The notes under the pieces were generated by a model. It saw only the letters and a list, made by a program, of their open reading frames with translations. It was not told the origin of the DNA and made no database searches. Below are positions 12,636-40,099 of a DNA stretch of 42,189 bases, one piece after another. A program made the position numbers and the translations under genes. Origin of the DNA: a virus; the IMG/VR virus record IMGVR_UViG_3300020421_000047, positions 1 through 42,189 of that record. One strand, 5' to 3'. Each line of letters begins with the position of its first letter. The first letter of the stretch is position 1.

Positions 12636-15600
12636 TGACCGAAGAAACAAATTTTTCAGGAATAAATGATGGTGATAATTTCGGTGTCAGTAATGTTGCC
12701 GAATTTTATAATGACGTTCATGTTTATGGAAAATTATATGCTGATTTAGTTGGTGGGTTAAGTGGAGATGGTAGTCAAGGATTAACTGTAGAAAGTTTAA
12801 TTGTTAATAATAATGCTGTTTTTAATAGTGATGTATCCATAAAAGGTCTTCTTGATACAGATTATCTTACAGTTTTTCAGAGATTAGATGTTGGTGCTGG
12901 TGGAACAGTTTTTACTGCTATATCTACTACTAATGGAAGGAATGGTCAGGGACAAACAGGAGGAAGGGTTGGTATAGGTAGTACACAACCAGATGCTTTA
13001 TTTCAAGTTGGAGAGAAACTTACTTCTCTTATTGTTACTGATAGTGGTAATGTTGGCTTGGGTTCTACGACACCTGGAGCACGTTTCCAAGTTGGTTCTG
13101 AATGTTTAATTGTTAATACTGATCCTTGTTCAGTTGGAATAGGAACAACTTTACCTGCACAAAAATTCCAAGTTAAATCTGGTACACAAGGTGCAGTTAT
13201 AAGTGATGCTGGACAAGTTGGTGTAAGAACCTCTATGTTCGAGGGGACAGAAGTCTTTAAAGTAAATTCAAAAGATAATTCATTTGTTATTACTGATACT
13301 GGTAATGTTGGTATTGGTAGTTTAGATCCTACTGCAGTTCCTGGTTATAATCCAAGTCAAGATGGTATAATAAAATTAAATGTAGAGGGATCAGTTAAGA
13401 TTGATCGAAATATAATTGACTCTGCAGATTCTCCAGGTGTAAATGGATATTATTTGAATAGAGATGGGAATGGTATCCGTTGGGTACAAGCATCTCCAAT
13501 CTCCTTAGATGGAATGTATGTTCAGGATGAAGGTGCTGACTTACCTGTAAATGGAACAGCACAATTATTCCAGTGGTTGAATTTTGTACAATTAGATAGT
13601 CAGGGTCTTGGAGTAGATACTTTACTTCCAATACCAGATCCAGCAAACCCAACTGCTATTGCAAAGATTCAAACACAGGATCTATGGGGTCATACTACTA
13701 GTGCTAATGATTCTCCAATCTATAGGATGACTAAGGTTGGTATTAAAAATAATAGTCCTAGCACAGAATTAGATGTAACTGGGGAAGTTCATGTAACTGG
13801 TAATGTTGATTTTGATTCTCAATTAAATGTTGATGGTGAAACATTCTTAAATGCTGCTTTAGATGTTGATGGTCTTACTACCTTTAATAATACTACTGAT
13901 GCAACATCAACTACAAGTGCATCTGTTCAATTGGATGGTGGTCTAGGAATAGTAAAACAAATTTATATTGGTGGAATTGCAAGAGTACAGGATTCAACTG
14001 ATTCTTCAAGTTGTACAACTGGTGCTTTAACGGTTGCTGGTGGTGTAGGTATTTCTAAGAATTTAAATATTTGTGGTGAACAAAAGATTACTTCAGCAAC
14101 AGAATCTACAAACTGTACTACAGGTGCTCTAGTAGTTACTGGTGGTGTAGGTATTTCTAAGAATTTAAATATTTGTGGTGATGTAGATATTTACGGTACA
14201 ACACAGTCAGTAGATAATAATAGTGGTGCTTTAGTTGTTGAAGGTGGTGTAGGAATTGAGAAGAATTTAAATGTAGGACAGAATACAAAACTAACGGGTA
14301 CTTTAGAGTTAGAAAGTAAAATAATTGATAAGTTTAATAATAATGGTGTTGGTATCTGTAAGACAGATTATAGATTATCTTCTTTTGATGTATCTGGTGT
14401 TGGTGCTGGTGTATCTTGGAGACCACCTGGCGTTCAAACTAAGAAGACTATATGGGTTACTAAGAATGGATGTGATACTAATAGTGGATTATTAGAAGGT
14501 GATGCAAAATATACTATAGCTGCTGCAGCAGGAGTAGCACAAATGGGCGATACGATTAAAGTTCGTTCTGGTGTTTATTATGAGAACAACCCAATTGGAT
14601 TAAGAACTGATGTTGCAATTTCAGGTGAAGATTTGAGATTAGTTACTCTAGTGCCTGAGAACACAAATAAGGATTTCTTCCACGTTAGAAATGGTTGTTT
14701 AGTTGAGAATGTTAGTTTCAAAGGATCTGCTGGAACAGAAACACTTCATCATGGTTTAGCTGCAGTTGCCTTCCCACCTACCGATGCTGCTGATCAAGCA
14801 GTTACAGGATATATTGAACTTGGTCCATCTAACGAAGGTCCTAGAGGAAGATATCAAAGTCCTTATGTTAGAAACTGTACTAACTTTATGACTGGTAGTA
14901 TTGGAATGAGGATTGATGGAAACCACGTAGGTGCTGCTTATACTGGAACGAATAATCTAGGACAGGATCTAAAGAGTATGGTTTGTGATGCCTTCACTCA
15001 ATATAATGAAGCAGGTATTGGTGTTTCAATTACTAACAAAGGATATGCTCAGTTAGTTTCTATCTTTACTATTGGTTGTGAGAAAGCAATCTATTGTGAT
15101 AGTGGTGGACAGTGTGATCTTACAAACTCTAACTCATCATTCGGTAAGTTTGGATTAGTTGCTGATGGTACTAGTGGCGTTGAGTTTGATGGAACTTTAG
15201 ACACTAAGATGGAAGCTGAGGCTGATAAGATTGTTGTTACAAATTGCCAAGATCAAAGCAATAATAATAGAACTCCTTTTGATGGTCAGGGTGCATACTT
15301 CCATTTGGATATGGCTGATTACCCAGATACAATCTCAACTGCATCTATAACTGCACCGATGCAAACTATTAGATCTATTGTAGTTGCTAATGGTGGTAAT
15401 CCTGGTGATTATTCTGCATCTGCACCTCCTCTTGTTACTGCTACTCTTCCACAAGGACCAGAAGCGATTATTGCTGAGTTCTCACCAAACGTAAGTGCTG
15501 CTGGAACGATCACTTCTGTTGATGTTATTGCTAGTGGTAGAAACTTCTTACCTACACAGAATATTGTAATGAGTATATCTGGTAGTGGTAATGCTCAGTT

Positions 15601-16016: not shown

Positions 16017-17009
16017 ATGGCAATAGCACCAGTAAATAAGTTTATTAATATTGCCGTTCCTGTTGCACCAGGCGTACAGAAACTTTATGAAGTTCCTACA
16101 GGAACTTCTGCTCTATTATTGTATGCACAAGTATCTAATGTTGCTGTTGGAACCACTTATCCTACAGCAACATTTTGGCAAAGAAGAACTCAGAGAAGTA
16201 CTGGTAGTGAAAGAGATGTAAGAATTATAAAGGAAGCAGAGATACCACCACAGGACGCATTAATAATGGTGGATGGTAGAATTGTATTGGAAAAAACTCC
16301 TATTGTAGTTGATAGTTTATACATTCGTGGAGCTCAGCAAGGTGTTGGTATTATTACTGATGTTCAATATGATGAACCATCAGGAATTGCTACAGTTCAA
16401 ACTCAGATAAAGCACGGATTTAATGCTGGTGATCAGATTAGTATGGGTGGAATGTATTTCACTTGCCCAAGTTATTCTGGTATAACAACTAATATTTTCC
16501 CAGATCCTCAGAGATCTTATACTGTGGATACCGTTGATGGTAATGTTGGAACATCTAAGACATTTTCAATTGATATTGGTGGTGCTAGTGGAAATGAACA
16601 CGTTTATAGTACAGCAATTCATAGATTTGTTAGAGCAGTTCCTCAGTGTATAGAGGTAGTTTCTAGTTCAAGTGTAGCAGTAGGAACAAAGTTTAGTGTA
16701 AGTACTGCAACTTATACTGGATCAACTGGAGAAATAACTTTAAATATTGGAAATAATGGTTTATTAAATGGAGATACAATTAAGATTGCAGATAATTCTA
16801 TAATAATGACTTGTACTATGGATAATCATTATAGTGAACATTCTTATCCTAGAGCAACAGATCCAGCATCTAATACTGCATTAACTCTTGCTGTTGCTGT
16901 TGCAAATGAATCAGTTCGAGTAAATGTTGGTAAGTCTTATTCTGGTGGATACGTTGCTCCATTAGAAATGGAACTAATAGCAAGTATCCTAGAGAATAGT
17001 AATGTCTAA
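16017..17009 (+). CDS. Virion structural protein, fibre cluster
   Basis: A 330-residue, mainly beta protein starting [19 protein letters not shown]. It has no transmembrane segment or enzyme motif. Visible features are an N-terminal region with a [21 protein letters not shown] segment and a [19 protein letters not shown] block, a [13 protein letters not shown] loop, and a C-terminal segment ([17 protein letters not shown], with [13 protein letters not shown] at the end). Proteins of this size recur in the fibre clusters of cyanomyoviruses as structural subunits, but no specific role is recognised. The stop overlaps the start of the collagen-like gene by eight bases, suggesting coupled synthesis, perhaps as its baseplate connector. 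Confidence 0.6.
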
Positions 17010-18783
17010 GAGATACCTAAGTGGAAGGGTTAAGAGATTACCCCAAGATCAATTAAAAGATGATAGGTATAAGTATCTTGGTTTAGATCAAGCAGAACCA
17101 AACCTTGCCGATCCAATTAGTAGTCCTTCTGCTCCTTCTGGTCAACAGTATCAGTTGGTTGCTATTCCTGGTTTTGAGGGTAAGAGATATTGGGTTCCTG
17201 TTGGTGGTGGATTAATTCCAGGTGCGATTAGTGTATATGATGAAGGATCTCTTGTTAGTGGTGCTAGTAGTATTACTCAACTTAATTTTGTTGGTGCAGC
17301 AGTAACAGCACAAGTAGATGTTATGAATCCTTCGGGACATCCAGGCATCGCTGCAACAATTACAGTTGTACCTGTTACTATTGGTTCTAATCCTCCAGTT
17401 AGTCCTATTCATGGAGAATTATGGTGGGAAGATGATATTGGAGATTTATGTATTTACTATGATGATGGTGATACTAGTCAGTGGGTTACTGTAGTTGCTA
17501 GTGGTAACGGTGGTGGTCCTACTGGTCCTGCTGGTCCTCCAGGTCCAACTGGAATAACTGGTCCTTCAGGTAATCCTGGACCTACTGGTCCTTCAGGTAA
17601 TCCTGGTCCTGCTGGTCCTACAGGTGGTGATGGTCCTACAGGTGGTCCAGGTCCAACAGGTCCAGACGGTCCTCCAGGTCCTGCTGGTGGTCCTCCAGGT
17701 CCAACTGGTCCTACAGGTGATGATGGTCCTCCAGGTCCAACTGGTCCTCCAGGAACTGGTTCTCCAGGTCCTTCTGGTCCTCCAGGTCCAAGTGGTGGTC
17801 CTGGTCCTACAGGTCCTGCTGGTCCTACTGGTCCAGATGGTCCAACTGGTCCAACTGGTCCTAGTGGTGGTCCTCCTGGACCTCCAGGTAATGACGGTCC
17901 TCCAGGTCCAAGTGGTGGAGATGGTCCTGCTGGTCCAAGTGGTTCACCTGGTCCTCCAGGTCCTAGTGGTGGTCCTCCAGGTCCAAGTGGTGGTCCTGGT
18001 CCTGCTGGTCCTCCAGGTCCAGATGGTCCAAGTGGTCCTCCAGGTCCTACAGGTTCTGCTGGTGCAATACCTGCTGGTGTTGTTGTTATGTGGTCTGGTG
18101 CTCAGAATGCTATTCCGACTGGATGGGTAATTTGTGACGGTAACAATAGCACACCAGATTTAAGAGATAAATTTGTTGTTGGTGCTGGTAGTAACTATGC
18201 TGTAGATAATAGTGGTGGTAGTGCTGATGCTGTAGTTGTATCTCACAGTCACGGTGGATCTGCTTCTATTAGTGGTGGAGGTGCTCATACTCACTCATTC
18301 TCTGCTTCTGATTCTCATACTCACTCATTCTCAGGTTCAGATTCATTCTCTGCTTCTGGTTCTCACTCTCACTCTTTCTCAGGATCTGCTTCTCACGGAC
18401 ACTCCTTAAGTTTAAGTGACTCTGCTCACCAACACACATCTGCTATTCCAGCGATGAATACTGTTGCTGGTAATTCAGGTTCACAAAGTATTTGGGGTAG
18501 TGTTACTAACTCTCCAACTTGGGGTGCAACTGCTAATGTTAGTGGTTCTGCTAATTCTGCAACAGTTAGTATTTCAGGTTCTACAAGTAGCAATAGTGTA
18601 AGTGTTTCTGGATCAGTTTCAATATCAGGAAATACTGGTAGTGGAACTGCAAGTGTATCTGGTACAACTGGATCTGGTGGTAATAGTGTAAGTGGAACTA
18701 TTACTGTAAATTCTGCAGGTGTTACAGGAACGAATAAGAATCTTCCTCCTTATTATGCATTATGTTACATTATGAAGTCATAA
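17002..18783 (+). CDS. Collagen-like fibre with tail-collar domain and HxH tip
   Basis: A 593-residue fibre. Residues 1-165 form a head domain ending in an [21 protein letters not shown]-like motif. A Gly-X-Y tract spans about 170-353 (bases 17509-18065), mostly GPT, GPA, GPP and GPS triplets with GG and GP interruptions. A phage tail-collar fold follows ([33 protein letters not shown]). Then come six His-x-His motifs at residues 415, 429, 439, 455, 465 and 476 inside Ser-rich repeats, and a final [14 protein letters not shown] strand, the standard collar ending. HxH rows bind iron in the T4 gp37 needle, so a metal-bound tip is plausible. It probably trimerises through collagen and collar parts. 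Confidence 0.82.
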
Positions 18784-18811: not shown

Positions 18812-20356
18812 ATGTCAAGAATTGATTTTCCAGCTAATCCTAATGTAGGTCAAGATTATACCTACAATAATTCCGTTTGGAGATGGGATGGATACGTTTG
18901 GAGAAGAATTCCAGATCCAGGTGCTCCTGGTCCTACTGGTCCTGCTGGTGCTCCAGGTTTAACTGGACCTGCTGGTCCTGATGGTCCAACTGGTCCTGCT
19001 GGTCCTCCAGGTCCTAGTGGTGGTCCTCCAGGTCCAACTGGTCCTGCTGGTGATGATGGTGCTCCAGGTCCTCAAGGTCCTCCAGGTATTGGTGGTCCAA
19101 CTGGTCCTACAGGTCCTGCTGGTACTCCAGGTCCTCCTGGTCCTGTAGGTCCTTCAAATCCAGGTCCAACTGGTCCCACAGGTCCAACTGGTCCCTCAGG
19201 TCCTGAAGGTCCTGCAGGTCCACCAGGTCCAGGTAATAGTGGAACTATTGATAGTGTAAAACAATATAGAACTCCTGGTGTAGAACGGAGTTGTGAAAGT
19301 CCGATCTTTGTAGTTAATAACAATACAATAGGTATTGGATCGACAAGTAACGCTTACGGAAATAGATTTGCTCAGAATGATGATCCTACTACTGCTAATG
19401 GTGGCAGTTGGACTGTATGTGATGGAGATTTATGGTATGATATGGATTCTGGTGCTGGTGGTGGACCTGGTCCTGCTGGTCCTCCAGGTCCATCTGGTCC
19501 AGCAGGTCCTCCAGGTCCAGCAGGTCCTCCTGGATCAGGTGGTGGTGCAAATGTAGAAACATCTGATACTGCACCAAGTAATCCTAGCGATGGTGATCTC
19601 TGGTGGGATTCTGTTAATGGACGATTAAATGTTTATTACCAAGATGCTGATAGTTCACAATGGGTTAGTTCTAATGGTGTAGGTATTGGATCAACTGGTC
19701 CTGCTGGTCCTCCAGGTCCAGGTGGTCCTCCAGGTCCTCCTGGATCTGGTGCTTCATCAGATAAGATAGAAGAGGGTAATAGCCATGTAGAAGTTATTGA
19801 TACTGGAGTTGGTTTAGGTACTGTTTTTGTTAATACAGAGGGTACTGATCGTTGGGAATTTACTCATCAAGGTCATCTTCTTCCAATAGCACATGAACAA
19901 TATGATATAGGTTCAGCAGATCAAAAAGTTAGACATTTATTCTTATCAGATAACAGTATAAAATTTGTTAGTGCTGCTAGTACAGTTAATTCATTAGGAA
20001 TATACACAGGTACTGATAAACTAACTTGGACTGGATCTTTTGGTAATATGAGTATAGGTGGGCATCTTATTCCCACCGATAATGCACAGTATGATCTAGG
20101 TAATGCAGAATATAAGATTAGACACTTATTCTTATCAGATAATAGTTTAAAATTTGTAGGTGCTGATGATGTAGTACGTGCGGTTGGTATTACTAATGGT
20201 AATCTAACCTATATGGGTAATCAATTGTTAACAGTTCAACTCGATAGTCCTCAAGCTGGGCATATTTTAGAGTATAATGGTACAGCATGGGCGAATAAAG
20301 TTAATAGTGGTTCTGCACCAGCATTCCAAACAAAAAATTGGAATATGCCCTTCTAA
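18812..20356 (+). CDS. Collagen-like fibre protein 2
   Basis: A 514-residue fibre. It opens with the FPANP ... W-W-D-G-Y-V-W signature shared, in variant form, with the starts of the 373-, 704- and 625-residue fibres. Collagen-like tracts lie at bases ~18919-19235, 19461-19545 and 19693-19750. Between the second and third is the copy [20 protein letters not shown] followed by SSQWV. The C-terminal part has two near-identical segments ([21 protein letters not shown] and [21 protein letters not shown]), each a beta-hairpin-like repeat. The end, [10 protein letters not shown], is also found in altered form ([10 protein letters not shown]) on the 181-residue collagen gene. The role is distal fibre or adhesin, inferred from architecture. 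Confidence 0.78.
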
Positions 20357-20807: not shown

Positions 20808-21929
20808 ATGGCAGTAAATTTTCCAAATAGTCCTTCAAATAACGACACCCACACCGAGAACGGTTATACATGGAAGTGGGATGGAACTACTTGGATAATT
20901 CAATCTATTGCTCCTCCAGGTCCCACAGGTCCTAGTGGTCCTACAGGTCCTTCAGGTTCTGATGGTTCTGATGGAAGTGATGGTGGTCCTGGTCCTGCTG
21001 GTCCTCCAGGTCCTTCAGTTACTGGTCCTCCAGGTCCCTCAGGTCCTCCTGGTCCACAGGGTACTGGTAGTGGTGATGCTATAGGAACAATTACAGCATG
21101 GTCTGGGGATGCATCTAATATACCAAGTGAATATCAATTATGTGATGGTTCTACACCAGTTACGACTGCATTACAACTGATTGTTGGGGTAGGTAACGGT
21201 GTTCCTGATTTAAGCAATAGATTTATTGTTGGAACGGGTGGTATGTTTGCTAATAAAACTTTTGCTGGAACTTATGGTGTTGCTACTGCACATCCTAATT
21301 ACTATGCTTTATGTTACATAGTCAAACATAGTGCTACTCCAAGTGGTCCTCCAGGTCCAGCAGGTCCTCCAGGCTCAGGTGGTGGTGCTAGTGTAACTAC
21401 TGATGATACTCCTCCAACTTCACCTAGTGATGGTGATCTCTGGTGGGATTCTCAGAATGGACGATTAAATGTTTATTATCAAGATGTTGATAGTTCTCAG
21501 TGGGTTGATGCTTCGGGTAGAGGTGTATCAGTTACACAAACTACTGGAACATTTAATGTAACACAACAAAGTTGTCAAAATTGTCAAGTTAATGCTGGAG
21601 TGTGGGTGAAAACTGGTAATATACTTCATGTTGATTTTAGTATTCAACATAATGGTGGAAGTGCTGGTGATACTAATCTACGTTGGGGTGGGCAAACTCA
21701 ACATCTTACAATAAATGATTCATCATTACATCCTGTAGTTGATTCAACCATACACTGGGATAGGAGATTTCATGATGTACCTCCTGGTAATTTAACTAGC
21801 ACTCAAGGAATATGGAATGGTAGTGCGGCTGTTAGTGCTTCTGGTGGAATATATAATTTTACGGGTTTAGCAGCTGGACCAGGACAATATGGAAAATATT
21901 ACTTTAGTGGTAGTTGGAGGGTAGCATAA
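20808..21929 (+). CDS. Collagen-like fibre protein 3 with collar fold
   Basis: A 373-residue fibre starting [20 protein letters not shown]. After the W-K-W-D-G motif comes a Gly-X-Y tract (bases ~20914-21070; GPT, GPS, GPP and GSD triplets). A shortened collar fold follows (IGTITAWSGDASNIPSEYQLCDG, VPDLSNRFIVGTGG, and NYYALCYIVKHS). A second small GPP tract precedes a [20 protein letters not shown] motif. The C-terminal ~115 residues (SVTQTTGTFNVTQQSC, CQVNAGVWVKTGN) look like a small beta-sandwich adhesin domain with two Cys pairs, ending YYFSGSWRVA. The collar here lacks the His-rich insertion of the 593-residue protein. Its stop overlaps the next ATG by one base. Confidence 0.76.
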   Translation: MAVNFPNSPSNNDTHTENGYTWKWDGTTWIIQSIAPPGPTGPSGPTGPSGSDGSDGSDGGPGPAGPPGPSVTGPPGPSGPPGPQGTGSGDAIGTITAWSGDASNIPSEYQLCDGSTPVTTALQLIVGVGNGVPDLSNRFIVGTGGMFANKTFAGTYGVATAHPNYYALCYIVKHSATPSGPPGPAGPPGSGGGASVTTDDTPPTSPSDGDLWWDSQNGRLNVYYQDVDSSQWVDASGRGVSVTQTTGTFNVTQQSCQNCQVNAGVWVKTGNILHVDFSIQHNGGSAGDTNLRWGGQTQHLTINDSSLHPVVDSTIHWDRRFHDVPPGNLTSTQGIWNGSAAVSASGGIYNFTGLAAGPGQYGKYYFSGSWRVA

Positions 21930-24043
21930 TGGCAATAGATTTTCCTACAAGTCCTAGTACAAACGATTCTCATACTCATAATGGGTTGACATGGAAGTAT
22001 GATGGCACATCTTGGGTTTTACAGACAACTATTACTGCTGGAGCAACTACTTATACTGACTTAACAGATACTCCTGCTAGTATGGGAGGTGCTGGAGAAT
22101 TTGTTAAAGTTAATGCTGCTGGAAATGCTTTAGAATTTACACCTTCTCCAACAACTACAACTATTAGGTGGGGAAAGAATAATAATACTGGTAGTGCTGA
22201 TTATACAGAATTTAATAGTGGTGGGGCAGGTAAAACATATCAATATACTGGTATGAGTAATGTAGTTAATGGTAATCTTTGGGGTGGATCACATAGAACA
22301 ACATTAAATGGTGGTGCTGGTGGTGATACTCGTCATTTCTTTGCATTAAACACAGGTGCAGTAACTACATGGACTATCGGTGTTGATTCTACTAGTACTA
22401 CTACAAGTAGTGGTCCTAGACTTTGGACTTCACCTGATGGGCAGAATTGGACTATGCATACTAGTGGTGCATCAATAGGATATCCTACACCAACATATTC
22501 TGTATCTGCTGCTCAGATTTGTATTTGTAGTATGGGTCAGAGTACAGATTTAACTTTTACTGTTGGATCTACTGCGACATATAGTAGTAGTGGTTCTTTT
22601 ATTACATTAGCTGATACACCTGCAAATTATACTTCCAGTAGTAATAAGTATCTAAAAGTAAATAACGGTGCAACTGCTGTAGAATTTGGAGATCTTCCTT
22701 CATTAGGATTACCTATAGTTAATGTTAAAGATTTTGGTGCAGTTCCAGGTGCTAATGGTGTAACAAATAAAGCTGGTATCGAATCAGCAATTAATTCATT
22801 AGCAGCTACAGGAGGATTGGTTTATATTCCTACAGGAAGTTATTCTATAACTGGTACTATATTAATAGATCAAGGTGTTATGGGTGATGGTGGTGGTATA
22901 AGTATCATCGGTCCTACTCAGAACTATAGGATTAGTGCTGCTGATGGTGAAGGAGCTTGTTTGGTTTCTACTGATCCTATTAGTGATATATTCAAAGTAA
23001 ATAATGTAAGAAATGTAACTTTTGCTAATTTATCATTTGATCATACAGATGGTGCTCCTAGAACTGATGGTGCTGCTGTTCATTTTTATTCTAATGTAAA
23101 TACTCAACAGATTAGAATGGATAGGATTTATATCCGAAAACAATTTGGTGGTATTAAAGTAGACGGACATTCAATTGGAACATTTAGAGATATAGAGATT
23201 AGAGATATTGCAGTTGACGCTGGATCTTATGGAATGTTATTTTCTGCTTCTGCTGGTGGATCTGAAAGAGTTGATCAGGTAAGATGTGAAAATGTTATTA
23301 TTGATGGTGTAGTTGATGGAGGTCCACATCCAACTGCAAATGGATTATGGGTTAAAGATTTTGTAAATTCAATATGGTTCCTTAATTGTGTTGTTCTTAG
23401 ATGTAATAAAGGATTCTTAATGGATTCAACTGTTCCTAGTGGAGCAACAGGTAATCCTGGTTCATTCTTTAGAATAAATGATTGTGATTTTGATACAAAT
23501 AATTCATATGGTATTGAGATTGCTGGTGGTAGTTTTATTTGGATTAATAACCCATACATAAGTAGTAATCTTAAGCATGGACTTTATGTTAATAGTACTT
23601 TTACTGGTGTTTTAAGAGTAAATGCTGCTGATTGTAGAGGTAATGGTGAACATGGAATGTGGATTCGTTCTACTAATCATAGAAAGATCTTTATAAGAGA
23701 TTCGCAATGCTCTAATAATGGTACGGTTTCAACTAATAATTATGATGGTCTTCATATATACGATGATAATGGTGTAGATCAATCTGATATAATGATTGAT
23801 GGTGGACAGTATGGTGGAGATATAATGGGAACACCTGATCCTGGTAGTAATAATATGACTACTACACCTCAGAGATATGGAATTAATTTTACTAATAATA
23901 CAAAATATAAAAGGATCATTATTAATAATGTAGATTGTTCTAGTAATAGAACAGGATCAATTCAATTTAATGTTGGTAATGGAATTGATAATATGATTCA
24001 TAATGTTATTCCATATCATGGATCACACTCAGGTGCTCACTAA
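21929..24043 (+). CDS. Beta-helix fibre or tailspike (pectate-lyase-type)
   Basis: A 704-residue protein. ATG 21929 ([10 protein letters not shown]) is chosen over the TTG 15 bases upstream because it overlaps the previous stop by one base and aligns with the other fibre starts. It has the common W-K-Y-D-G head. Two ~30-residue fibre repeats follow ([19 protein letters not shown] and [19 protein letters not shown]). From ~265 a pectate-lyase-3-like right-handed beta-helix starts: [36 protein letters not shown]. Many Asn/Gly ladders follow to ~690. Such folds are common in tailspikes that cleave host polysaccharide, but catalytic residues cannot be assigned. It probably binds or trims host glycans. 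Confidence 0.75.
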
Positions 24044-24588
24044 TGGCAGTTAAGATACGAAAAGGTGGTAGTTGGGTAACTATAGTAGGTAATGGACCTC
24101 CAGGTCCAGCAGGTCCTACAGGTCCAACTGGTCCTGCTGGTGCAGACGGTGCAGATGGAAATGATGGTGGAGCAGGTCCTCCAGGTCCAACTGGTCCCAC
24201 AGGTCCAACTGGTCCTGTTGGTCCTACAGGTGGATCGGGTGGTTCAGGTCCTCCAGGTCCCACAGGTCCTGCTGGAAATGATGGAGCAGATGGAAGTAAT
24301 GGTCCTGCTGGTGCAACTGGTCCCACAGGTCCAACTGGTCCTGTTGGTCCACCAGGTCCAACTGGTCCTTCTGGTCCCCAAGGTGTTGCTGGACTAGATA
24401 TTGGCGTATCTCCTCCAACTGGTCCTTCAACTGCTGGTGACTTATGGTGGGAATCTGATACAGGTCATCTATATGTCTATTATAATGATACTAATAGTAC
24501 TCAGTGGGTATCAGTTTCACAAGGACCTGCTGGAGCTCCTGGTGGTTCTGGGACATTTCAAACTGGGGATTGGCATATGCCCCTCTAA
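24043..24588 (+). CDS. Short collagen-like fibre protein 4
   Basis: A 181-residue protein that is mostly collagen: a 16-residue start ([16 protein letters not shown]), a Gly-X-Y tract to about residue 118 (bases 24094-24395, with GPT, GPA, GAD and GND triplets), then a [20 protein letters not shown] motif followed by a short GPAGAPGG stretch and the [10 protein letters not shown] ending. The ending matches the C-terminus of collagen fibre 2 ([10 protein letters not shown]). It begins one base inside the beta-helix gene (TAATG). The lack of a dedicated tip domain suggests a stalk or linker subunit. It precedes the second copy of the duplicated cassette. Confidence 0.74.
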
Positions 24589-24976: not shown

Positions 24977-26854
24977 ATGGCAGCATTCGATTTTCCAAAC
25001 AGTCCATCCCTTAATGATACCCATACAGAAAATGGGGTAATTTGGAAGTGGAATGGATATGCTTGGGATCGAGTTCCAAGTAGTGGTCCGCAAGGTGCTC
25101 CTGGTCCTACAGGTCCAGCAGGTCCTACAGGTCCATCAGGTCCTACAGGTGGAGATGGTCCTCCAGGTCCAGGTGGTGGAACTGGTACTCCAGGTCCAGC
25201 AGGTCCTCCAGGTCCTCCTGGAAATGATGGTGCTGATGGTTCTGATGGTGGAACTGGTACTCCAGGTCCAACTGGTCCCACAGGTCCAACTGGTCCAACT
25301 GGTCCTGCAGGAGGTACGGGTGGAGATGGTCCTACAGGTCCAGCAGGTCCTCCAGGTCCTCAAGGTAATCCAGGTCCAACTGGTCCTACAGGTTCAAGAA
25401 ATTTTAATATAACAAATAGTGGATCTGGTTCTTATTGTGTTGATACTGTATGTAATAATCCAACAATAAATTTAATAAGAGGATTTAGTTATGTTTTTAC
25501 TGTAAATGCGAGTGGTCATCCATTCTGGATTAAAACATCACAAACTACTGGAACAGGTAATCAATATAATACAGGAGTAACAGGTAACGGTACTCAATCA
25601 GGAACTATATTATGGACTATTCCTGCTTCTGCACCAAATACACTTTATTATATCTGTGAGTACCATAGTGCCATGAAAGGTACTATTTCTATATCAGATT
25701 TTGGTCCTGCTGGACCTCCAGGTCCTCCAGGTCCAACTGGTCCTACAGGTCCTTCAGGTTCTGACGGTTCTGATGGTGGAAGTGGTCCTCCAGGTCCTCC
25801 AGGTTCTGATGGTGATGATGGTGGAAGTGGTCCTGCTGGTCCTCCTGGACCTCCAGGTCCAAGTGGAACTGGTCCTGCTGGTCCTCCAGGTCCTCCAGGT
25901 GCTGACGGAAATGACTCAACAACACCAGGACCTCCAGGTCCTCCAGGTTCTGATGGTGATGATGGTGGAAGTGGTCCTGCTGGTCCTCCTGGACCTCCAG
26001 GTGCTGACGGAAATGACTCAACAACACCAGGACCTCCAGGTCCTCCAGGTTCTGATGGTTCTGATGGGGGAAGTGGTCCTCCAGGTCCAGGTGGTCCTCC
26101 AGGTCCTCCAGGTCCAGGTGGAACTGGTCCAAATGGTCCTCCAGGTCCTCCAGGTCCAGGTGGTGGAAGTGGTCCTAGTGGTCCTCCAGGACCTCCAGGT
26201 CCTACAGGTCCTCCAGGTTCAGGCGGAACAGCAAATACTGATCCAGCATTTAGCATATATGTAAGGAATACTCAAACAACTCCATCAACTATATCAGTTA
26301 CTCTTGATACTACTGATTATGATACTTGGTTAGTTTTCGTTACTTCTGGTGGTGGAGGAGCTGGTGGTGGTTCTTCCAGTGGAAACTCTGGTGGTGGAGG
26401 AGGCGGTGGCGGTACAGCCATACGTAAATATTCTGCTGCAGAAATGGGTAATGGTCAGTGTACTTTATTTGTTGGTCAAGGTGGTGCTGCTGGATCTGGT
26501 GGAGGTAATGGATCTTCTGGACAGTATTCTCAGTTCTATCCAAACTCAAGTCAGTATGCTATAACTGCCTATCCTGGTCAAGGTGGTAGTGGTGGTAATA
26601 ACGGTGCTCTTGTTGCTGGTGGTGGAGGAGGAGTTGGATATGGTGATATAAATTCCTTTGGTGGTGAAGGAACTCCTGGTGCTGGTGGAGAAACTGGTAG
26701 AGGTGGAGAAACTTATTGGGGTGGTGGTCACAACTGGACTCCTGGTGGAGGTGGAAGAGGAGTTCAGGGTGGTGCTAATCCTATAGGAATAAATGATGGA
26801 AAACCAGGATGTATTGTAATTTTTGGATACAAGAAGAGTAAATTTACAGTTTAA
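24977..26854 (+). CDS. Collagen-like fibre 5 with cupredoxin-like and Gly-rich domains
   Basis: A 625-residue fibre. The common head ([15 protein letters not shown], then WKWNGYAW) leads into collagen tract 1 (bases ~25085-25395). Residues ~141-241 interrupt the collagen with a cupredoxin-like domain: [17 protein letters not shown], then a strand pair, then [15 protein letters not shown]. Its His181, Cys227, His230 and Met233 fit the type 1 copper pattern His...Cys-x2-His-x2-Met. Collagen tract 2 follows (25704-26225) with internal DNA repeats. The C-terminal ~200 residues are a Gly-rich beta domain ([14 protein letters not shown] ... [19 protein letters not shown] ... CIVIFGYKK), as on many phage fibre tips. 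Copper binding is predicted, not shown. Confidence 0.8.
25892..26059 (+). repeat. 66-base perfect direct repeats in collagen tract, 102-base offset
   Basis: Bases 25892-25957 recur exactly at 25994-26059. The unit encodes a [13 protein letters not shown]-type collagen block. A further near-copy of the [18 protein letters not shown] block lies 144 bases before its second occurrence (about 25802 and 25946). This is a recent in-frame duplication of 34 residues inside the fibre stalk. Confidence 0.85.
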
Positions 26855-26856: not shown

Positions 26857-27384
26857 ATGAGTTTTCTAGACGATTTTAAAAAAACAGATCTTCAACATCA
26901 AGCTGATAGTGATACTGTTCAAACTAATATAAGAGCTGGTATTGGAACCACTTACATAGATTTTGCTATAGTTGATAATGCTACTAGTTTAGTAGCAACT
27001 ACTATAGTAGGATATGCGGATACCTCCAAGAATCCAACTTGTGCTGAAATGGGGTTTACTGAACATCATTTCGTTGCTATTGGTGCTACTTATCGTGGTG
27101 AATTTGCTGGTATTGCAAATCGATGCTTAGTAAGACCTGATTGGAAATATACTGATGCTGGTGGATTTTTTGATCCAGTTGATTATACAGAAGCATGGAC
27201 AAAGGGTATGAGAGAATCCAGAGATAAAAAATTATTAGAATGTGATTGGACTCAATCAACAACAGATAGTACATTATCATCCGATAAGAAAGCTGAGTGG
27301 GCTACTTATAGACAGGCACTAAGAGACTTACCTGCTAACACTACAGATATTGCCAATCCTCCTTGGCCGACAAAACCCACATAG
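26857..27384 (+). CDS. Tail-fibre-assembly-like protein
   Basis: A 175-residue protein. The C-terminal ~60 residues (SRDKKLLECDWTQSTTDS, then KKAEWATYRQALRDLP and PWPTKP) are the widespread phage tail-assembly-chaperone-like pattern (R-x-x-x-L-x-x-x-D-W-T ... W-x-x-Y-R-Q-x-L-R-D-L-P). Such proteins chaperone tail fibres or are displayed with them. The first ~115 residues (FLDDFKKTDLQHQADSDT, GFTEHHFVAIGATYRGEFAGI) have no recognised fold. It follows the Gly-rich fibre after two bases, consistent with helping fibre folding or assembly. Its final codons hold the -35 of the next promoter. Confidence 0.72.
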   Translation: MSFLDDFKKTDLQHQADSDTVQTNIRAGIGTTYIDFAIVDNATSLVATTIVGYADTSKNPTCAEMGFTEHHFVAIGATYRGEFAGIANRCLVRPDWKYTDAGGFFDPVDYTEAWTKGMRESRDKKLLECDWTQSTTDSTLSSDKKAEWATYRQALRDLPANTTDIANPPWPTKPT

Positions 27385-27418: not shown

Positions 27419-28012
27419 ATGAATGATCTGATACAAGTAATTAAAATTCTTAATGATGAGGATCTTAAAAAAGTAAATGAATATGTTGATACTTTAGATT
27501 TCCAAGATAATACGGTGTTTGGCAAACCTGGTGATGAGTGCCAAACTAATACTGATATTAGATCTAGTACTGGTGTATCTTTAGATGATGAACATGAAAT
27601 AACTAATATTATTCATACTGCTATGAATAATGGATTGGATGAATATAAAAGAAGAGTGCAAAAGGTTCATCCAAACTTTAGTTATTATCCTGTACCTGGT
27701 GCTGTGGGAACTAGATCTTGGAGAGAAGGAATACAGATATTAGATTATAAAAAAGGGCAAGAGTATAAGTTTCATCACGATTCAGCAACAGAAACTAGAT
27801 TGGGTGAGTATTACAGACAAATTTCTGTTATATTATATCTAGAAGAAGCAAAGAAAGGTGGTGGGACTGCATTTACACATCTATCAGTCAAACCAAAACC
27901 TGGTTATGCTCTTATATTTCCATCTAATTGGTGCTATCCTCACGCAGGTGAACCCGTAAATGCAGGTAAAAAGAGAGTTGCGGTTACGTGGTATTACGTT
28001 GAGAATATATAG
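27419..28012 (+). CDS. 2OG-Fe(II) oxygenase, prolyl 4-hydroxylase type
   Basis: A 197-residue enzyme of the double-stranded beta-helix dioxygenase superfamily. It would use 2-oxoglutarate, O2 and Fe(II) to hydroxylate a substrate, with succinate and CO2 as products. The metal triad is visible: His119-x-Asp121 in KFHHDSA and His175 in YPHAGEPV. Lys185 lies ten residues after His175, the spacing of the 2OG-binding Lys in collagen prolyl 4-hydroxylases. The supporting motif GVGTRSWREGIQILDYKKGQ fits the fold, as does SVILYLEEAKKGGGTAF. It directly follows five collagen-like fibre genes, which suggests Pro in Gly-Pro-Pro repeats as substrate; free proline or another protein remains possible. Confidence 0.87.
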   Translation: MNDLIQVIKILNDEDLKKVNEYVDTLDFQDNTVFGKPGDECQTNTDIRSSTGVSLDDEHEITNIIHTAMNNGLDEYKRRVQKVHPNFSYYPVPGAVGTRSWREGIQILDYKKGQEYKFHHDSATETRLGEYYRQISVILYLEEAKKGGGTAFTHLSVKPKPGYALIFPSNWCYPHAGEPVNAGKKRVAVTWYYVENI

Positions 28013-28028: not shown

Positions 28029-28241
28029 ATGATTATGAATGATGAAACTGTACAGGACATCATAGTTGATGTCTGCAAAAGAAGAATTACGTTAATTAGT
28101 AGTGAAGGTGAAACTAGATTTGTTAAGTGTGAAGACACGGAACAGTTCATGAGTGTAATGGATGTTATCAAAGAACATGCTGATCCTGAGATCATTACTT
28201 ATGTTGAACCAAAATTAACGACAGATAGTAAAGCTAAATAA
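28029..28241 (+). CDS. Small conserved cyanophage protein after the hydroxylase
   Basis: A 70-residue acidic protein (MIMNDETVQDIIVDVCKRRITLISS). ATG 28029 is preferred over the upstream in-frame ATG at 27960, which lies inside the hydroxylase coding region; the next ATG at 28035 is also possible. Short strands and helices (FVKCEDTEQFMSVMDVIKEHAD, then IITYVEPKL) suggest a compact alpha/beta fold. There is a Cys in the first helix and one in the strand after it. It has no promoter of its own and so is probably cotranscribed with the hydroxylase. Function unknown. The late promoter of the next fibre overlaps its stop codon. Confidence 0.65.
   Translation: MIMNDETVQDIIVDVCKRRITLISSEGETRFVKCEDTEQFMSVMDVIKEHADPEIITYVEPKLTTDSKAK
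28233..28240 (+). promoter_or_regulatory. Late promoter octamer for the 1897-residue fibre
   Basis: GCTAAATA overlapping the preceding stop codon and 38 bases before the ATG at 28279, the longest plus-strand late spacing here. Confidence 0.55.
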
Positions 28242-28278: not shown

Positions 28279-31200
28279 ATGCCACTTAATAAGTTAGAGA
28301 ATTTCATAAAGAATAGTGAGGGTCGCATTCTTTATGTTAATCCAAATGATCTTGATGCCACTGATGGAATAGAAAATCAGGGTAACTCATTAACAAAACC
28401 ATTTAAGACCTTACAAAGAGCACTTATCGAATCCGCTAGATTTTCATATCTAAGGGGAAATGATAATGATTTAGTAGAGAAGACAACAATATTACTTTTT
28501 CCAGGTGAACATTTAATAGATAACCGTCCAGGTTTTGGTATAAAGGATGTTAATGGAACTGCTACTGCTGTTAGTCCAAGTAGTGCAGAATCAGGTGCTC
28601 AAAATACCTTAACATTAACTCTTAATTCTAACTTTGACTTAACGCAAGAAGATAATATACTTTATAAGTTCAACAGTACTGAAGGTGGTGTTATAGTTCC
28701 TAGAGGAACTTCTATTGTTGGATTAGACTTAAGAAAAACAAAGGTTCGTCCTAAGTATGTTCCAAATCCTACTGATGATAGTGCAAAACCTACTGCTATC
28801 TTTAGGGTTACTGGTGCTTGTTATTTCTGGCAGTTCTCTATCTTTGATGGGGATGAGTCTACATTAGTATATACAGACCCTACTAACTTTGATACTACAA
28901 ATAGATCTAAACCAGTATTTTCTCACCATAAGGTAACTTGTTTTGAATATGCTGATGGTGTTAATAAGTTAGATAAGTTTGGTGGATTAACTGATTTAGA
29001 TGTTTACTATAGTAAGTTATCCAACGCATATAATAGGGCATCAATCAGAGATATTGATGAGAAGTTTCCTAGTAATGCAGGTGGATTTGCAAAGCAAAGA
29101 CCTGAATTTGAAATTGTAGGTGCTTTCTCTGCTGATCGTATTCAGATCTCAAATATTATTTCAGGTGATGGTGCAACACCAGGTCAGGTTGTTACAGTAA
29201 CAACAGCAGTTCCACATGAATTAACTGGTGGTACACCAATTAAGATTGAGGGTGTTAATGAAGTAACATATAATATTTCAACTAAAGTTAATAGTGTTTT
29301 GAATGAAACTCAATTCACATATCTATTATCTTATGTTCCACCTAATCTTAGGGCAGGTCCTGCTGGTGGATTAAGTGCTGGTAGTGCAGAGGTTAGTGTA
29401 GAAGTTGATACTGTAACAGGTGCTTCACCATACATCTTTAACTGTTCGTTAAGATCAGTTCTTGGTATGTGTGGTATGAAAGCTGATGGTGCAAAGGCAA
29501 CTGGATTTAGATCTATGGTTGTTGCTCAGTTTACTGGGGTATCACTACAGAAAGATGATCGTGCATTTGTAAAATATAATAAAAATAGTAGAAAATATGA
29601 TGGTATTACATATCAAAAACAAACTGGTGAGTTGCTATCATCCGAAGCATCAAATCCTAATCCAGCAAATGTTTATCACTTAGATAAGGATGCTGTTTAT
29701 AGAGATGGTTGGAAGACTGCACATATTACACTAGAGAATGATGCTGTTCTACAGATTGTTTCTGTGTTTGCTATTGGTTATCACATCCACTTCTTAATGA
29801 AGTCTGGTGGTGACGCATCTATTACAAACTCTAACTCTAACTTCGGTCAGTTTGCTCTTGCTGCTGATGGGTTTAAGAAAGAATCTTTTGATAAAGATAA
29901 TAAAGGATTTATTACATCTATTATTGCACCAAAGGCAGTTGTTAGTGAAGAATCTAATATTGAGTTAAATCAACTTGATACTTCTGTTAACCAAGCATAT
30001 AAAGCTGCTGATACTTCAACAAATAATATTCTTAGTAGAAGTAAGTTATTCTTATTAGGTCAAACTAATGAGAACTTAGTACCATCTGAAATTGCACAGG
30101 GATTTAGAATCGGTGCAAGAGTTGGTGAGAAGTTTTATATAGATTTGGCAAATGGAACTAAAGTTCAGGCTACCATCTGTATGTCCAATAAGGAAATTGT
30201 TGGTGGTAATGCTTCAACTGTGACTTCAACAGTTAGAGTTACTTCAGAAAAAGAATATGAAGGAATTCATAATAATACTACTCAAGGAAGTGCATCTATT
30301 CAGCATAAAATAGAACTCAACAATTTACGTGCTGTTGGTGCTAAACATGATCTTAATAATGGTGAATCTATTAGAATTATTGCAGAGAGTGGTGATTTAC
30401 CAGAAGGTTTAGATCCGCATAAAATTTATTATGCAATTACTAATGAAAAGAATGCTTCAAGACAAGATGGTATCAGTTTAGATGATTACACAATTCAGAT
30501 TGCATCATCAAAAACTAACTCTGATAGAACTACACCACAATATATTAAAACTATTTACAGTCCTGATGCAGGTAAATTAAAAATTATTAGTAGAGTTTCT
30601 GATAAGAAACCAGGTGATCTAGGACATCCGATGCAGTGGGATGCTGCTGAAAGTAATTGGTTTATTCATGTTGATGGTACAAATCAGTCTTCTGAATCAA
30701 CTTATAACACAATATATGACAATTTTGCTAATTTAGATCCTGATGATGAGGATATTCCTTATCTTCAAAGACAAAATGATAGTAGAAGTTTAGATGATAA
30801 ACTCTATAAGTTTAGATATGTAATTCCAAAAGAATTAGAAAATGCTAGAGATCCTAACGATAGTTTTATTGTTCAAGATTCTAGTTCTACTAATATAAGA
30901 GCAACAGCAGATTTCACTAGAACATCTATTGGATCTACTGATTATGATTATAATAGGAATTTGAGATTCATTTCTTATCTTGATTTTAATAGCACGACTA
31001 AAATAGTCACTATTAGATCTGATAAGTCACATAATTTAAATGCTGGTGAACAGATTATCCTTAAGAATATAAAATGTACTGTTAATCCTAATGGAGCAGC
31101 AGGTAAAGGATATAATGGAACATTCTTAGTTAATAGTATTATTAGTGATAAAGTCTTTACTTATAAGACAACTGACATTTTAGGTAATGTCCATAATGTA

Positions 31201-33972
31201 GGAACTTATAGTAATGACACTCATACTAGGGATATGGCATTACCTAGATTTGAAAGGAATGATAACAAAGAGAATCTATTTGTTTATAGAACTGAAACAA
31301 TCTTACCATATGTTGAGGGAGCACAAGATGGTGTTTACCATATGTACATTCTGAATGGTAATAATGTCATAGCAGAAGAATTTCCTAATGGTAAGTATAA
31401 TCAGAATGTTGTTAATCTTTATCCAGAATTGGATCGAGATAATGTAAATGATAATCCACAACAGGCAAATAGTTATGCTAAGAGATTCCCTATTGGTGAT
31501 GTAGTTACTAATGATCTTAAGAAGAGTATTACTAGAGAAACTGCTAATAATTTTATTAATAGTTTTGGTGTTGCAAATACAATTAGTGATGTAACTGATA
31601 ATACTACTTCTGCTGTTTTAACACTTACAAAGGAACACAATCTTGGTGGTTTGAAGTATGGTGGAACATTATCAGGTGGAGGAAGTCATACTGATGGAAC
31701 TTACTATAACGTAAAATTATTTGATGATGCTTCTGCTCCTGCTTCTGCTGTATGGAAAGGTGCTACTGCTAAAGTTGTTGTTAGTGGTGGAGCAGTTACC
31801 GAGTATGAGATAACTGAACCAGGATCAGCATATAAGAGTTCACTATCTCCATTATATTTTGATTCATCATTAGTATCTCAAGGTGGTATTGGTGGAGCTC
31901 CTAGTGCTAATATCGCTATTACTGATACAAACATTAGTTTGGCAACTGCTAGTTATGTTCAAGTAACAGGTATTAGTACTGGAACAGATCAATACTTCAG
32001 AGTTAATGATGCTACGGATATTAACAAGATCAATATTAATAAGACTGCAAGTGAAACTATTCTAAATGGTCAAACTGTTGTTAGTGTAGGACCTACTGTT
32101 GAAGTTAGTACTTCTAGTGGAACTGATACAACTACATTTAATTGTACTGCTGCACACGGATTACTCAAAGGAAATCGTTTCAGAGCATTAAATGCTTCTG
32201 ATGCTAATCTTGGAGACTTTATTGTTACTGAAGTTGTGGATGTAGATAGTTTTACTGCTGAAACTCCAGGTGGATTAACATCTCCTAAGTATATTCTTAA
32301 GCATGGATTATCTGCTAATGATGGTAACTCTGGTAAGCAAGGAGAAAGTTTAGGAGTAAGAGGAATTTGTTTCTATGATAATGAATCTCTAGTTTTGAAT
32401 GAAACAATTACTTCAGTTACGGATGAAATTAAAGTTACTCTACCTGGTGGAGGAACAACTGTTGCATCTATTCAAGCAAGATTCCCATTAGGTTCATTTA
32501 TTCAGATTGATAGTGAAATAATGAGAGTTGTTGATAAAACTATTGGTACTGGAACTAAACTTAAAGTTATTCGTGGTGCATTAGGTACGATTGTTGACAA
32601 CCATGTTCTTAATTCTCAGATTAAGAAGATTAATCCACTTCCTGTTGAATTACGAAGACCATCTATTTTAAGAGCATCTGGTCATACGTTTGAATACCTT
32701 GGTTATGGTCCAGGTAACTATTCAACTGGTTTACCTCAAGTTCAACTTAAATCTCTAACTGAGAGAGAAGAGTTCTTATCACAATCACAAGAAACTTCTT
32801 GTGGTACTGTTGTTTACACAGGTATGAATGATAAGGGTGATTTCTATATTGGAAACACTAAGATTTCATCTGACTCTGGTGAACAGATAACATTTGATAT
32901 TCCAATTCCAACTGTAACAGGTGAAGATCCAAGTACGCTTAGTGTTGTATTTGATGAAGTAATCATTAAAGATAGATTACTTGTTGAGGGTGGAAGTTCT
33001 AATACAATTCTATCTCAGTTTAATGGACCTGTAACGTTCAACGGTAATGTAAGATTTAACAAGGATCTTAAAGTTGCAACTAACTTAACTGTTGATGGTA
33101 TAGTTAAATTTAATAATGAAACGGTAGCATCATCTAGTTGTGGTGTAACTCCTACAGGATCATTAGTGGTTAAAGGTGGAGTTTCTATTGGTGATAAGGT
33201 AACTGCTTCTGGTGCAGTATCCTTAAATGTAATGGATGGTATCGTTAGAATTTGTGAAAATGCTGCATCAACCAGTTCTACCACAGGTGCTTTAATAGTT
33301 GGTGGTGGTGTTGGTGTTGCTGGTCAACTTTCTCTTGGTGGTGTTTTAGATGTTACTGGCAACATAAATGCTGGTGGCGGTTTACATTTACCTGATAATG
33401 TTAAATTAACTGCTGGTGGAACTACTGCTGGACCATATTTCTCTATTGAACATGATGTTAATAATGGTGTTCGCACTAATATTATTAAAGATGAATCACT
33501 CGCTAACATATACTTGCGAAGTGATGCGAATATTGAAATAGGTAATAAGGATGGCACAGAGCAAGGTTTAATTTATACTGCTGGAGCAGGTATTAAATTA
33601 CGTCATGGCACTACCTTAAGGTTTGAAACTCTTAATTCTGGTGCTAAAGTTCATGGTGCTTTAGAAGTAACTGATGATATTACTGCATACTCAACTTCTG
33701 ATGCAAGATTGAAGAATGATGTTAAACCAATACAAGATTCTCTTGCTAAGGTTAAATCAATTTCAGGTAATACCTTTACTTGGAATGAGGCATCTAAGAA
33801 AGAGGGACAGGAAGATACTGGTGTGATCGCACAAGAAATTTCTGCTATCGGATTACCTGGCACAGTAACCATTAGAGAAGATGGAACCTATGCTGTTGAT
33901 TATGAGAAGTTAGTTCCACTTCTATTGGAAGCAATCAAGGAATTATCTAATAAGGTTGATACTTTATCATAA
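28279..33972 (+). CDS. Giant fibre protein with C-terminal S74 self-cleaving chaperone
   Basis: A 1897-residue virion protein. It starts with a beta-helix-like cap (RILYVNPNDLDATDG, then KPFKTLQRALIESARF and TTILLFPGEHLI). Around residue 500 it carries the FAIGYHIHFLMKSGGDASIT block, homologous to the 1126-residue fibre. At ~1475-1550 the SGHTFEYLGYGPGNYS and MNDKGDFYIGNTKIS segments match that protein's end, and TGAL-V-x-GGVGV repeats occur at ~1610-1690. The last ~95 residues are the endosialidase-type intramolecular chaperone (S74): TSDARLKNDVKPI with Ser1807, then TGVIAQEI and VDYEKLVPLLLEAIKELS. Family knowledge says cleavage before that Ser releases the trimerised fibre. Confidence 0.85.
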   Translation: MPLNKLENFIKNSEGRILYVNPNDLDATDGIENQGNSLTKPFKTLQRALIESARFSYLRGNDNDLVEKTTILLFPGEHLIDNRPGFGIKDVNGTATAVSPSSAESGAQNTLTLTLNSNFDLTQEDNILYKFNSTEGGVIVPRGTSIVGLDLRKTKVRPKYVPNPTDDSAKPTAIFRVTGACYFWQFSIFDGDESTLVYTDPTNFDTTNRSKPVFSHHKVTCFEYADGVNKLDKFGGLTDLDVYYSKLSNAYNRASIRDIDEKFPSNAGGFAKQRPEFEIVGAFSADRIQISNIISGDGATPGQVVTVTTAVPHELTGGTPIKIEGVNEVTYNISTKVNSVLNETQFTYLLSYVPPNLRAGPAGGLSAGSAEVSVEVDTVTGASPYIFNCSLRSVLGMCGMKADGAKATGFRSMVVAQFTGVSLQKDDRAFVKYNKNSRKYDGITYQKQTGELLSSEASNPNPANVYHLDKDAVYRDGWKTAHITLENDAVLQIVSVFAIGYHIHFLMKSGGDASITNSNSNFGQFALAADGFKKESFDKDNKGFITSIIAPKAVVSEESNIELNQLDTSVNQAYKAADTSTNNILSRSKLFLLGQTNENLVPSEIAQGFRIGARVGEKFYIDLANGTKVQATICMSNKEIVGGNASTVTSTVRVTSEKEYEGIHNNTTQGSASIQHKIELNNLRAVGAKHDLNNGESIRIIAESGDLPEGLDPHKIYYAITNEKNASRQDGISLDDYTIQIASSKTNSDRTTPQYIKTIYSPDAGKLKIISRVSDKKPGDLGHPMQWDAAESNWFIHVDGTNQSSESTYNTIYDNFANLDPDDEDIPYLQRQNDSRSLDDKLYKFRYVIPKELENARDPNDSFIVQDSSSTNIRATADFTRTSIGSTDYDYNRNLRFISYLDFNSTTKIVTIRSDKSHNLNAGEQIILKNIKCTVNPNGAAGKGYNGTFLVNSIISDKVFTYKTTDILGNVHNVGTYSNDTHTRDMALPRFERNDNKENLFVYRTETILPYVEGAQDGVYHMYILNGNNVIAEEFPNGKYNQNVVNLYPELDRDNVNDNPQQANSYAKRFPIGDVVTNDLKKSITRETANNFINSFGVANTISDVTDNTTSAVLTLTKEHNLGGLKYGGTLSGGGSHTDGTYYNVKLFDDASAPASAVWKGATAKVVVSGGAVTEYEITEPGSAYKSSLSPLYFDSSLVSQGGIGGAPSANIAITDTNISLATASYVQVTGISTGTDQYFRVNDATDINKININKTASETILNGQTVVSVGPTVEVSTSSGTDTTTFNCTAAHGLLKGNRFRALNASDANLGDFIVTEVVDVDSFTAETPGGLTSPKYILKHGLSANDGNSGKQGESLGVRGICFYDNESLVLNETITSVTDEIKVTLPGGGTTVASIQARFPLGSFIQIDSEIMRVVDKTIGTGTKLKVIRGALGTIVDNHVLNSQIKKINPLPVELRRPSILRASGHTFEYLGYGPGNYSTGLPQVQLKSLTEREEFLSQSQETSCGTVVYTGMNDKGDFYIGNTKISSDSGEQITFDIPIPTVTGEDPSTLSVVFDEVIIKDRLLVEGGSSNTILSQFNGPVTFNGNVRFNKDLKVATNLTVDGIVKFNNETVASSSCGVTPTGSLVVKGGVSIGDKVTASGAVSLNVMDGIVRICENAASTSSTTGALIVGGGVGVAGQLSLGGVLDVTGNINAGGGLHLPDNVKLTAGGTTAGPYFSIEHDVNNGVRTNIIKDESLANIYLRSDANIEIGNKDGTEQGLIYTAGAGIKLRHGTTLRFETLNSGAKVHGALEVTDDITAYSTSDARLKNDVKPIQDSLAKVKSISGNTFTWNEASKKEGQEDTGVIAQEISAIGLPGTVTIREDGTYAVDYEKLVPLLLEAIKELSNKVDTLS

Positions 33973-39517: not shown

Positions 39518-40099
39518 ATGAAATTTACTCTTGCTATAGGAAACCCTCCTTATGGTGTAGGAGGGAATCTTGCTATAAAGATATTAAATAAAACTTCTGA
39601 GATCACAGATGATATTAGGTTTGTATTACCTACATCTATGAGGAAACCTTCTTGTCAGAATAAGATCAAGTCATATCTTCATTGTGAAGTTGATGATGAT
39701 CTAGATGCTGCTACTTTTCCTGGTGGAATAAGTGCAGTAAAACAGTATTGGAAAGTAAAAAACACATCGAGATTTGCAAAAGGGGTGAACGAGATTCCTA
39801 TGCACCGAGAACATCCCGATTTTGAATTTCTAGATTACAAAGATAGATTTGAGGCAGATGTTTTTATTGGTGAGTATGGATGTGGTCCTAGTGGAGTAGT
39901 AAAGACTGAGAATTTTACACACTATGCTAAAGGACATCATTTTCTAAATGTTAAATCACCTGAAGTAATTAAGAATCTACTAGAGTTTGCTCCTAAGTTT
40001 AGAGAAGTAGCAACAGTAACTAATGGTCGATACCATTTTGGTAAGAATGATTTAATTAGTACTTATATTAAATGTTTAGATGAAAAAGAACAAGCATAA
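39518..40099 (+). CDS. DNA adenine methyltransferase, NPPY catalytic half
   Basis: A 193-residue protein beginning almost at the catalytic motif: KFTLAIGNPPYG (motif IV of N6-adenine DNA methyltransferases, residues 2-13). The following GGNLAIKILNKTSEIT, IRFVLPTSMRKPSCQNKI and DAATFPGGISAVKQYWKV are the usual downstream parts of this Eco57I/type I-like enzyme family. The rest (residues ~90-193) would be the DNA-recognition end, with a GEYGCGPSGVV motif. It lacks the SAM-binding motif I. That motif lies in the next gene, which this gene overlaps by 20 bases, so the two polypeptides are probably made together. Target sequence unknown. Sigma70-like promoter directly upstream. Confidence 0.78.
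   Translation: MKFTLAIGNPPYGVGGNLAIKILNKTSEITDDIRFVLPTSMRKPSCQNKIKSYLHCEVDDDLDAATFPGGISAVKQYWKVKNTSRFAKGVNEIPMHREHPDFEFLDYKDRFEADVFIGEYGCGPSGVVKTENFTHYAKGHHFLNVKSPEVIKNLLEFAPKFREVATVTNGRYHFGKNDLISTYIKCLDEKEQA

Follow-up and report, generated by a model that had tools for sequence, protein, structure and literature searches.

The open reading frame at 27419..28012 (plus strand) of the DNA analysed probably encodes a phage prolyl 4-hydroxylase (P4H) that modifies Gly-X-Pro triplets in the phage's own tail fibres, as judged from sequence comparison and a predicted structure. The basis for this reading is an intact family-level active site, purifying selection, a P4H-like sequence and predicted fold, a location beside fibre genes, and an association, recurrent in independent lineages, with proline at position Y of Gly-X-Y repeats. 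The window, meaning the whole stretch of 42,189 nucleotides, comprises positions 1-42,189 of IMG/VR record IMGVR_UViG_3300020421_000047 and represents part of the genome of a T4-like cyanomyovirus. Its kin are the Prochlorococcus phages P-SSM2 and P-SSM5, to which it exhibits approximately 92% DNA identity across about 70% of 20000-42189.

Active site and class of the oxygenase

The 197-aa product matched the Pfam family 2OG-FeII_Oxy_3 (PF13640) with an E-value of 3.3e-16 and a score of 60.5 bits (cut-off 27), and is assigned to the 2-oxoglutarate (2OG)-Fe(II) oxygenase superfamily by this profile match and its HxD...H triad. The codons for His119-His120-Asp121 lie at 27773..27781, His119 and Asp121 being two of the three predicted Fe(II) ligands; the distal ligand His175 is encoded at 27941..27943 and the putative 2OG-binding Lys185, ten residues further on, at 27971..27973, all on the plus strand. 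These are exactly the triad and lysine of the original prediction, and His119, Asp121, His175 and Lys185 were invariant in 34 relatives. Lys185 aligns with the corresponding lysine of the B. anthracis P4H, and a lysine at +10 agrees with membership of the P4Hs without proving P4H activity. Profile alignments paired Tyr110, Tyr116, His119, Asp121, Arg133, Lys185 and Trp191 with P4H residues, Tyr110, Tyr116, Arg133 and Trp191 falling at P4H-typical positions; in P4H structures, the counterparts of these seven residues serve to bind iron, 2OG and the proline to be modified. A dN/dS of 0.15-0.18, determined against six close orthologues, indicates that the gene is maintained by purifying selection.

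When a profile built from the 34 relatives was searched against the PDB, P4Hs were the only matches among solved proteins. The best sequence match was the B. anthracis P4H (3itq, 5hv0, 5v7y; E 1e-10 with the single sequence and 6e-16 with the profile), which has the same Fe and 2OG residues, and the matches further included the Chlamydomonas P4H (Cr-P4H), vCPH of PBCV-1 and the catalytic domain of human C-P4H-II (7zsc, E 2e-5). An AlphaFold2 model of the oxygenase (pLDDT 87.4, pTM 0.87) had as its top Foldseek matches vCPH (E 1e-9), Cr-P4H, the B. anthracis P4H and PHD2, with TM-scores of approximately 0.5-0.67. The nearest proteins in sequence and in predicted fold are both prolyl hydroxylases, and the P4H-type class originally proposed is supported by the PDB profile matches and the Foldseek ranking alike.

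The B. anthracis P4H is a cellular enzyme for which EF-Tu is a reported target, and a host protein of this kind might be the target of the phage enzyme. Its rank as best sequence match would be consistent with such a role, as would the presence among the fold matches of the entry 'Prolyl 4-Hydroxylase Interacts with and Modifies Elongation Factor Tu' (5v7y). A host target is nevertheless very unlikely, as it leaves unexplained both the location by fibre genes and the correlation with the GPPG motif described below.

The orthologue in P-SSM2, PSSM2_031, is 91% identical (NC_006883.2 27677-28270, corresponding to 14001-14594 of our locus L078) and is named piuC or 'ferrochelatase' in RefSeq. This label appears to be wrong, since the NCBIfam PKHD/YbiX models scored 28 bits (cut-off 143). 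The annotation and these weak PKHD-family matches would point towards a PiuC/YbiX-type hydroxylase, a DNA-repair dioxygenase or a 2OG sink acting on nitrogen signalling, and roles of the DNA-repair and nitrogen-signalling type have been suggested for the 2OG oxygenases of cyanophages generally (PMC3037559). Such functions are highly improbable here: the score is far under the curated cut-off, P4Hs match better by sequence, PiuC ranked 46th by fold and a link with GPPG would not be expected. Cyanophage 2OG-Fe(II) oxygenases (phrog_61; T4-GC 104, 240, 412 and 611) belong to the same superfamily and occurred in 1-10 copies in each cyanomyovirus tested, whereas the candidate P4H forms a separate orthologous group located beside fibre genes; in 18 records lacking the gene, paralogues scored no more than 64 bits with the oxygenase profile. 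In L026, L042, L054-L056, L068 and L076, the orthologue is accompanied in tandem by another 2OG oxygenase of its family. A search for a cellular origin among GTDB genomes gave only three matches, all on MAG or single-cell contigs and possibly representing phage DNA.

The fibre genes around the oxygenase

The oxygenase gene is preceded by a gene for a tail-fibre assembly chaperone (26857..27384; Phage_tail_APC, PF16778, E 6e-17) and followed by a small core gene of 68 aa (28035..28241) and a gene for a 1897-aa tail-fibre protein (28279..33972), all on the plus strand. The chaperone gene is directly 5' of the oxygenase in many relatives, and the same slot before the large fibre is occupied in P-SSM2, ACG-2014f, S-CAM7 and most of 77 IMG/VR loci. 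The listed ORF start of the core gene at 27960 is over-extended, P-SSM2 annotating a gene of 68 aa; as a core gene found in 43 of 53 oxygenase-free loci, it was rejected as a partner of the oxygenase. A scan for the TATAAAT late promoter found no informative site near the oxygenase gene. Elsewhere in the window, two ORFs overlap at 39518-40478; an NPPY motif occurs in the first and a SAM-binding-like motif in the second. Together they resemble an adenine methyltransferase that is split and reversed in order, and P-SSM2 annotates a pair of the same lengths.

Five fibre genes with Gly-X-Y tracts lie upstream on the plus strand, as had been noted from the sequence. Fibre gene 1, of the YLSGR family (17002..18783), carries 60 triplets at nt 17515-18069, ten of them GPP; gene 2 (18812..20356) has 52 triplets with ten GPP between nt 18920 and 19750; gene 3 (20808..21929) has a short tract of 11 triplets with one GPP at nt 20919-21017; gene 4 (24043..24588; 181 aa) has 34 uninterrupted triplets with four GPP at nt 24094-24399; and gene 5 (24977..26854) has 24 GPP in tracts from nt 25085 onwards and 98 triplets in all, the latter count including a Gly-rich C-terminal part that is not collagen-like. 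Matches to Pfam Collagen were above the cut-off in four of the five, gene 3 falling below. The description of these genes as immediately upstream was loose, because the chaperone gene intervenes and three genes that lack Gly-X-Y repeats (20381, 21914 and 24613) are interspersed. The window contains 243 Pro-containing Gly-X-Y triplets; 67% have proline at X and 28% at Y, and GPP represents 20% of them.

Other enzyme genes occur in the corresponding region of relatives. Glycosyltransferase genes adjoin or lie near the orthologue in L079 (12917-14008) and L080 (12114-13094), where the tracts are Thr-rich at Y (GAT), and genes of our family F45, carbamoyltransferase-like by eye, are found directly 5' of the oxygenase in L028 (2092-4901) and L049 (8560-9990); the fibre cassette may hold interchangeable fibre-modifying enzymes.

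Y-position proline in loci with the oxygenase and in loci lacking it

To sample relatives that carry the oxygenase and relatives that lack it, the N-terminal 400 aa of the 1897-aa fibre protein served as an anchor; 460 phage records were searched with the fibre by tblastn, and IMG/VR contains more than 597 loci with the anchor. The comparison covered 110 loci, 57 with the oxygenase and 53 without. The original prediction had proposed co-occurrence of P4H and Gly-X-Y fibre genes across cyanophages as a test, and in that plain form the result was blurred. Generic PF13640 matches were present in 21 of 21 cyanomyovirus isolate genomes and are uninformative as a trait, collagen (PF01391) was detected in four of the 21 (three with the orthologue, plus S-PRM1), and some orthologues adjoin Pro-poor tracts. 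A first contingency table restricted to Pro-containing tracts gave collagen in 37/57 loci with the gene and 0/53 without, a comparison that was set aside as it partly presupposes its answer; counting any Gly-X-Y tract gave 42/57 against 11/53, the 11 gene-free loci being Pro-poor. Proline at Y and the GPPG motif were therefore used instead, and the oxygenase is linked to proline at Y rather than to collagen itself.

GPPG was found in 52 of the 57 loci with the oxygenase and 2 of the 53 without, at densities of 1.30 and 0.002 per kb respectively, whereas the frequency of non-Pro GXXGXXG differed little (2.4 against 1.7). The proportion of proline at Y was 0.00-0.04 in all 11 gene-free Gly-X-Y loci, compared with a median of 0.26 in carriers (p 7e-6). 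Triplets of the gene-free loci were mostly GDK, GQK, GEK, GLQ and GHQ, with GPT in S-PRM1. Long Lys/Glu/Gln-rich, Pro-poor tracts of this type (GDK, GQK, GLQ, GHQ) are carried by the oxygenase-free cyanophages L103, L106, L108, L119, L120, L152, L158, L159 and L161. Carriers that at first appeared to lack collagen contain short interrupted tracts, exemplified by GPPGPASTVA and by stretches of 11 and 22 residues; interrupted collagen built from a short, regular unit, for example of 11 residues, was seen in the IMG/VR carriers L063, L065, L068, L070, L076 and L163.

The sampled loci are related by descent, and the fibre cassette may be transferred as a unit. Comparisons were made on the anchor tree, where the oxygenase changes 14 times. 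Among 11 independent pairs differing in the oxygenase, GPPG changed in the same direction in 8.2 and in the opposite direction in 0 (p 0.008). With a trait of proline at Y of at least 0.05 the pairs numbered 5.4 against 0 (p about 0.03), and at a threshold of at least 0.1 they numbered 2.3 against 0, which was not significant on this tree. The test thus weakens under stricter traits; its direction is consistent, with the strong effect concentrated in a few clades.

The small number of independent pairs under stricter traits would also be expected had the oxygenase and the Pro-rich fibre genes simply travelled together as one variable cassette, the enzyme acting elsewhere, and both do occupy the same variable slot adjoining a conserved fibre gene. 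Joint transfer of this kind is unlikely, however, since proline at Y shifts inside homologous fibre genes. In the YLSGR family (homologues of 17002), GPPG was present in 21 of 22 genes beside the oxygenase and in 1 of 7 without it, this one being from S-PRM1. Outside the tracts, the proteins of the oxygenase-free L108 and L120 are 70-73% identical to that of 17002 over the N-terminal 160 aa, yet their tracts read GDKGQKG and GQKGEKG where the window gene reads GPPGPTG. The shift was moreover seen in several different fibre families, other GXXGXXG being common to both groups.

For comparison with viral collagens at large, controls were drawn from IMG/VR with a DNA pattern fixing only glycine and proline at X. 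Their median proline at Y was 0.03 (0.00 at GC < 0.47), compared with 0.35 in carrier loci; with the same selection applied on both sides the values were 0.02 and 0.23 (p 1.5e-4). As these controls were selected on proline at X, only Y is distinctive in this comparison.

Proline at X was nonetheless also higher with the oxygenase, at 0.45 against 0.02 in gene-free cyanophage loci, which raises the alternative of another or additional fibre chemistry, such as 3-hydroxylation of proline at X, modification of Thr, Lys or other residues, or, in some lineages, a step preceding glycosylation. The Thr-rich tracts of ACG-2014f and S-CAM7, in which a glycosyltransferase gene adjoins the orthologue or lies close to it, and the Lys-rich tracts of some carriers would accord with this. 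Proline at X is, however, generally high in viral collagens (0.60, in the sample chosen for proline at X), the window tracts are without Lys and the nearest relatives of the oxygenase are 4-hydroxylases; we judge such chemistry unlikely.

Candidate substrates of the proposed P4H are rich in proline at Y and in step with the enzyme, with L019, L020, L061 and L171 as exceptions; together with L102 and L047, these carry an orthologue beside Pro-poor tracts. In ACG-2014f and S-CAM7, which have the orthologue, proline at Y is only about 0.1. Across the virosphere, GPP tracts were not supported as a predictor of any 2OG enzyme: unrelated phage contigs, mostly fragments, carry GPP-rich tracts or a 10-residue sequence without a PF13640 match, as is often the case for AT-rich contigs with a 10-residue sequence, and in 25 control contigs the presence of a 2OG enzyme did not clearly follow proline at Y. 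Unhydroxylated GPP already stabilises triple helices.

Proposed mechanism and comparison with known systems

The original prediction that the phage hydroxylates its own fibre stalks is favoured by the P4H-type enzyme, its conserved place by fibre genes and the link to proline at Y, from which we infer catalysis, substrate, 4-position chemistry, timing and a stabilising effect as follows. Late in infection, the phage P4H would use O2, Fe(II) and 2OG available in the host cytoplasm to hydroxylate the Y proline of Gly-X-Pro-Gly, chiefly GPPG, in newly made fibre chains. Hydroxylation would take place before or during trimerisation of the tail-fibre chains, and may stabilise their triple-helical stalks.

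The enzyme would thereby act on the same position as animal C-P4H, the Y of X-Y-Gly, with which it shares the HxD...H motif and the lysine spacing. Animal C-P4H has a peptide-substrate-binding domain and a PDI subunit, whereas the phage oxygenase is a lone catalytic domain whose 197 aa leave no space for a peptide-binding domain. In this it resembles vCPH of PBCV-1 (5c5t/5c5u), the best fold match and likewise a small virus-encoded single-domain P4H, although from an algal virus and only about 20% identical. The PBCV-1 P4H was first described in 1999, its viral role is regarded as unresolved and hydroxyproline was not found in PBCV-1 virions despite the encoded enzyme (PMC7019647). By comparison, the candidate substrates of the phage enzyme are neighbouring fibre genes whose content of proline at Y tracks the enzyme.

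Phages and bacteria have been said to lack prolyl hydroxylation of collagens, and phage collagens to have no preference for proline at Y, the enzyme being missing (PMC3368898). Judged by their sequences, the carriers described here depart from both statements, with a P4H-type enzyme and abundant Y proline. Viral P4H genes have also been reported among the abundant auxiliary genes of Baltic Sea viruses, where their use was called cryptic (PMC9301287). Given the PBCV-1 P4H and the mimivirus enzymes, virus-encoded P4H and collagen modification are not new as concepts; a partial literature search found no earlier account of a phage P4H whose fibre substrates are linked to it and co-vary with it. 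The chances seem about even that cyanophages possess a collagen-hydroxylation system, the first in phages, in which P4H and fibre substrates co-evolve, Y proline being gained or lost by the fibres along with the enzyme, and hydroxyproline-containing helices of the virion are made in a bacterium. If so, it would explain fibre building in part of the ocean's T4-like phages and offer a bacterial route to hydroxylated collagen that needs a single gene. Because the candidate substrates lie in the same cassette and the correlation is at residue level, the P4H role is testable in cultured P-SSM2.

Mimivirus, a giant virus, similarly encodes collagens and modifying enzymes, a lysyl hydroxylase and a glucosyltransferase (PMC9546862), but employs lysine chemistry, whereas the Gly-X-Y tracts of the window are without Lys at X or Y. 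Collagen lysyl hydroxylase was rejected as an identity for the oxygenase, with 0 Lys in the 243 Pro-containing triplets. In S-PRM1 (L085, 24571-31176), a collagen-like fibre gene rich in Lys at Y (39%) is closely followed by two other 2OG oxygenase genes, which are candidates for a lysine-modifying pair.
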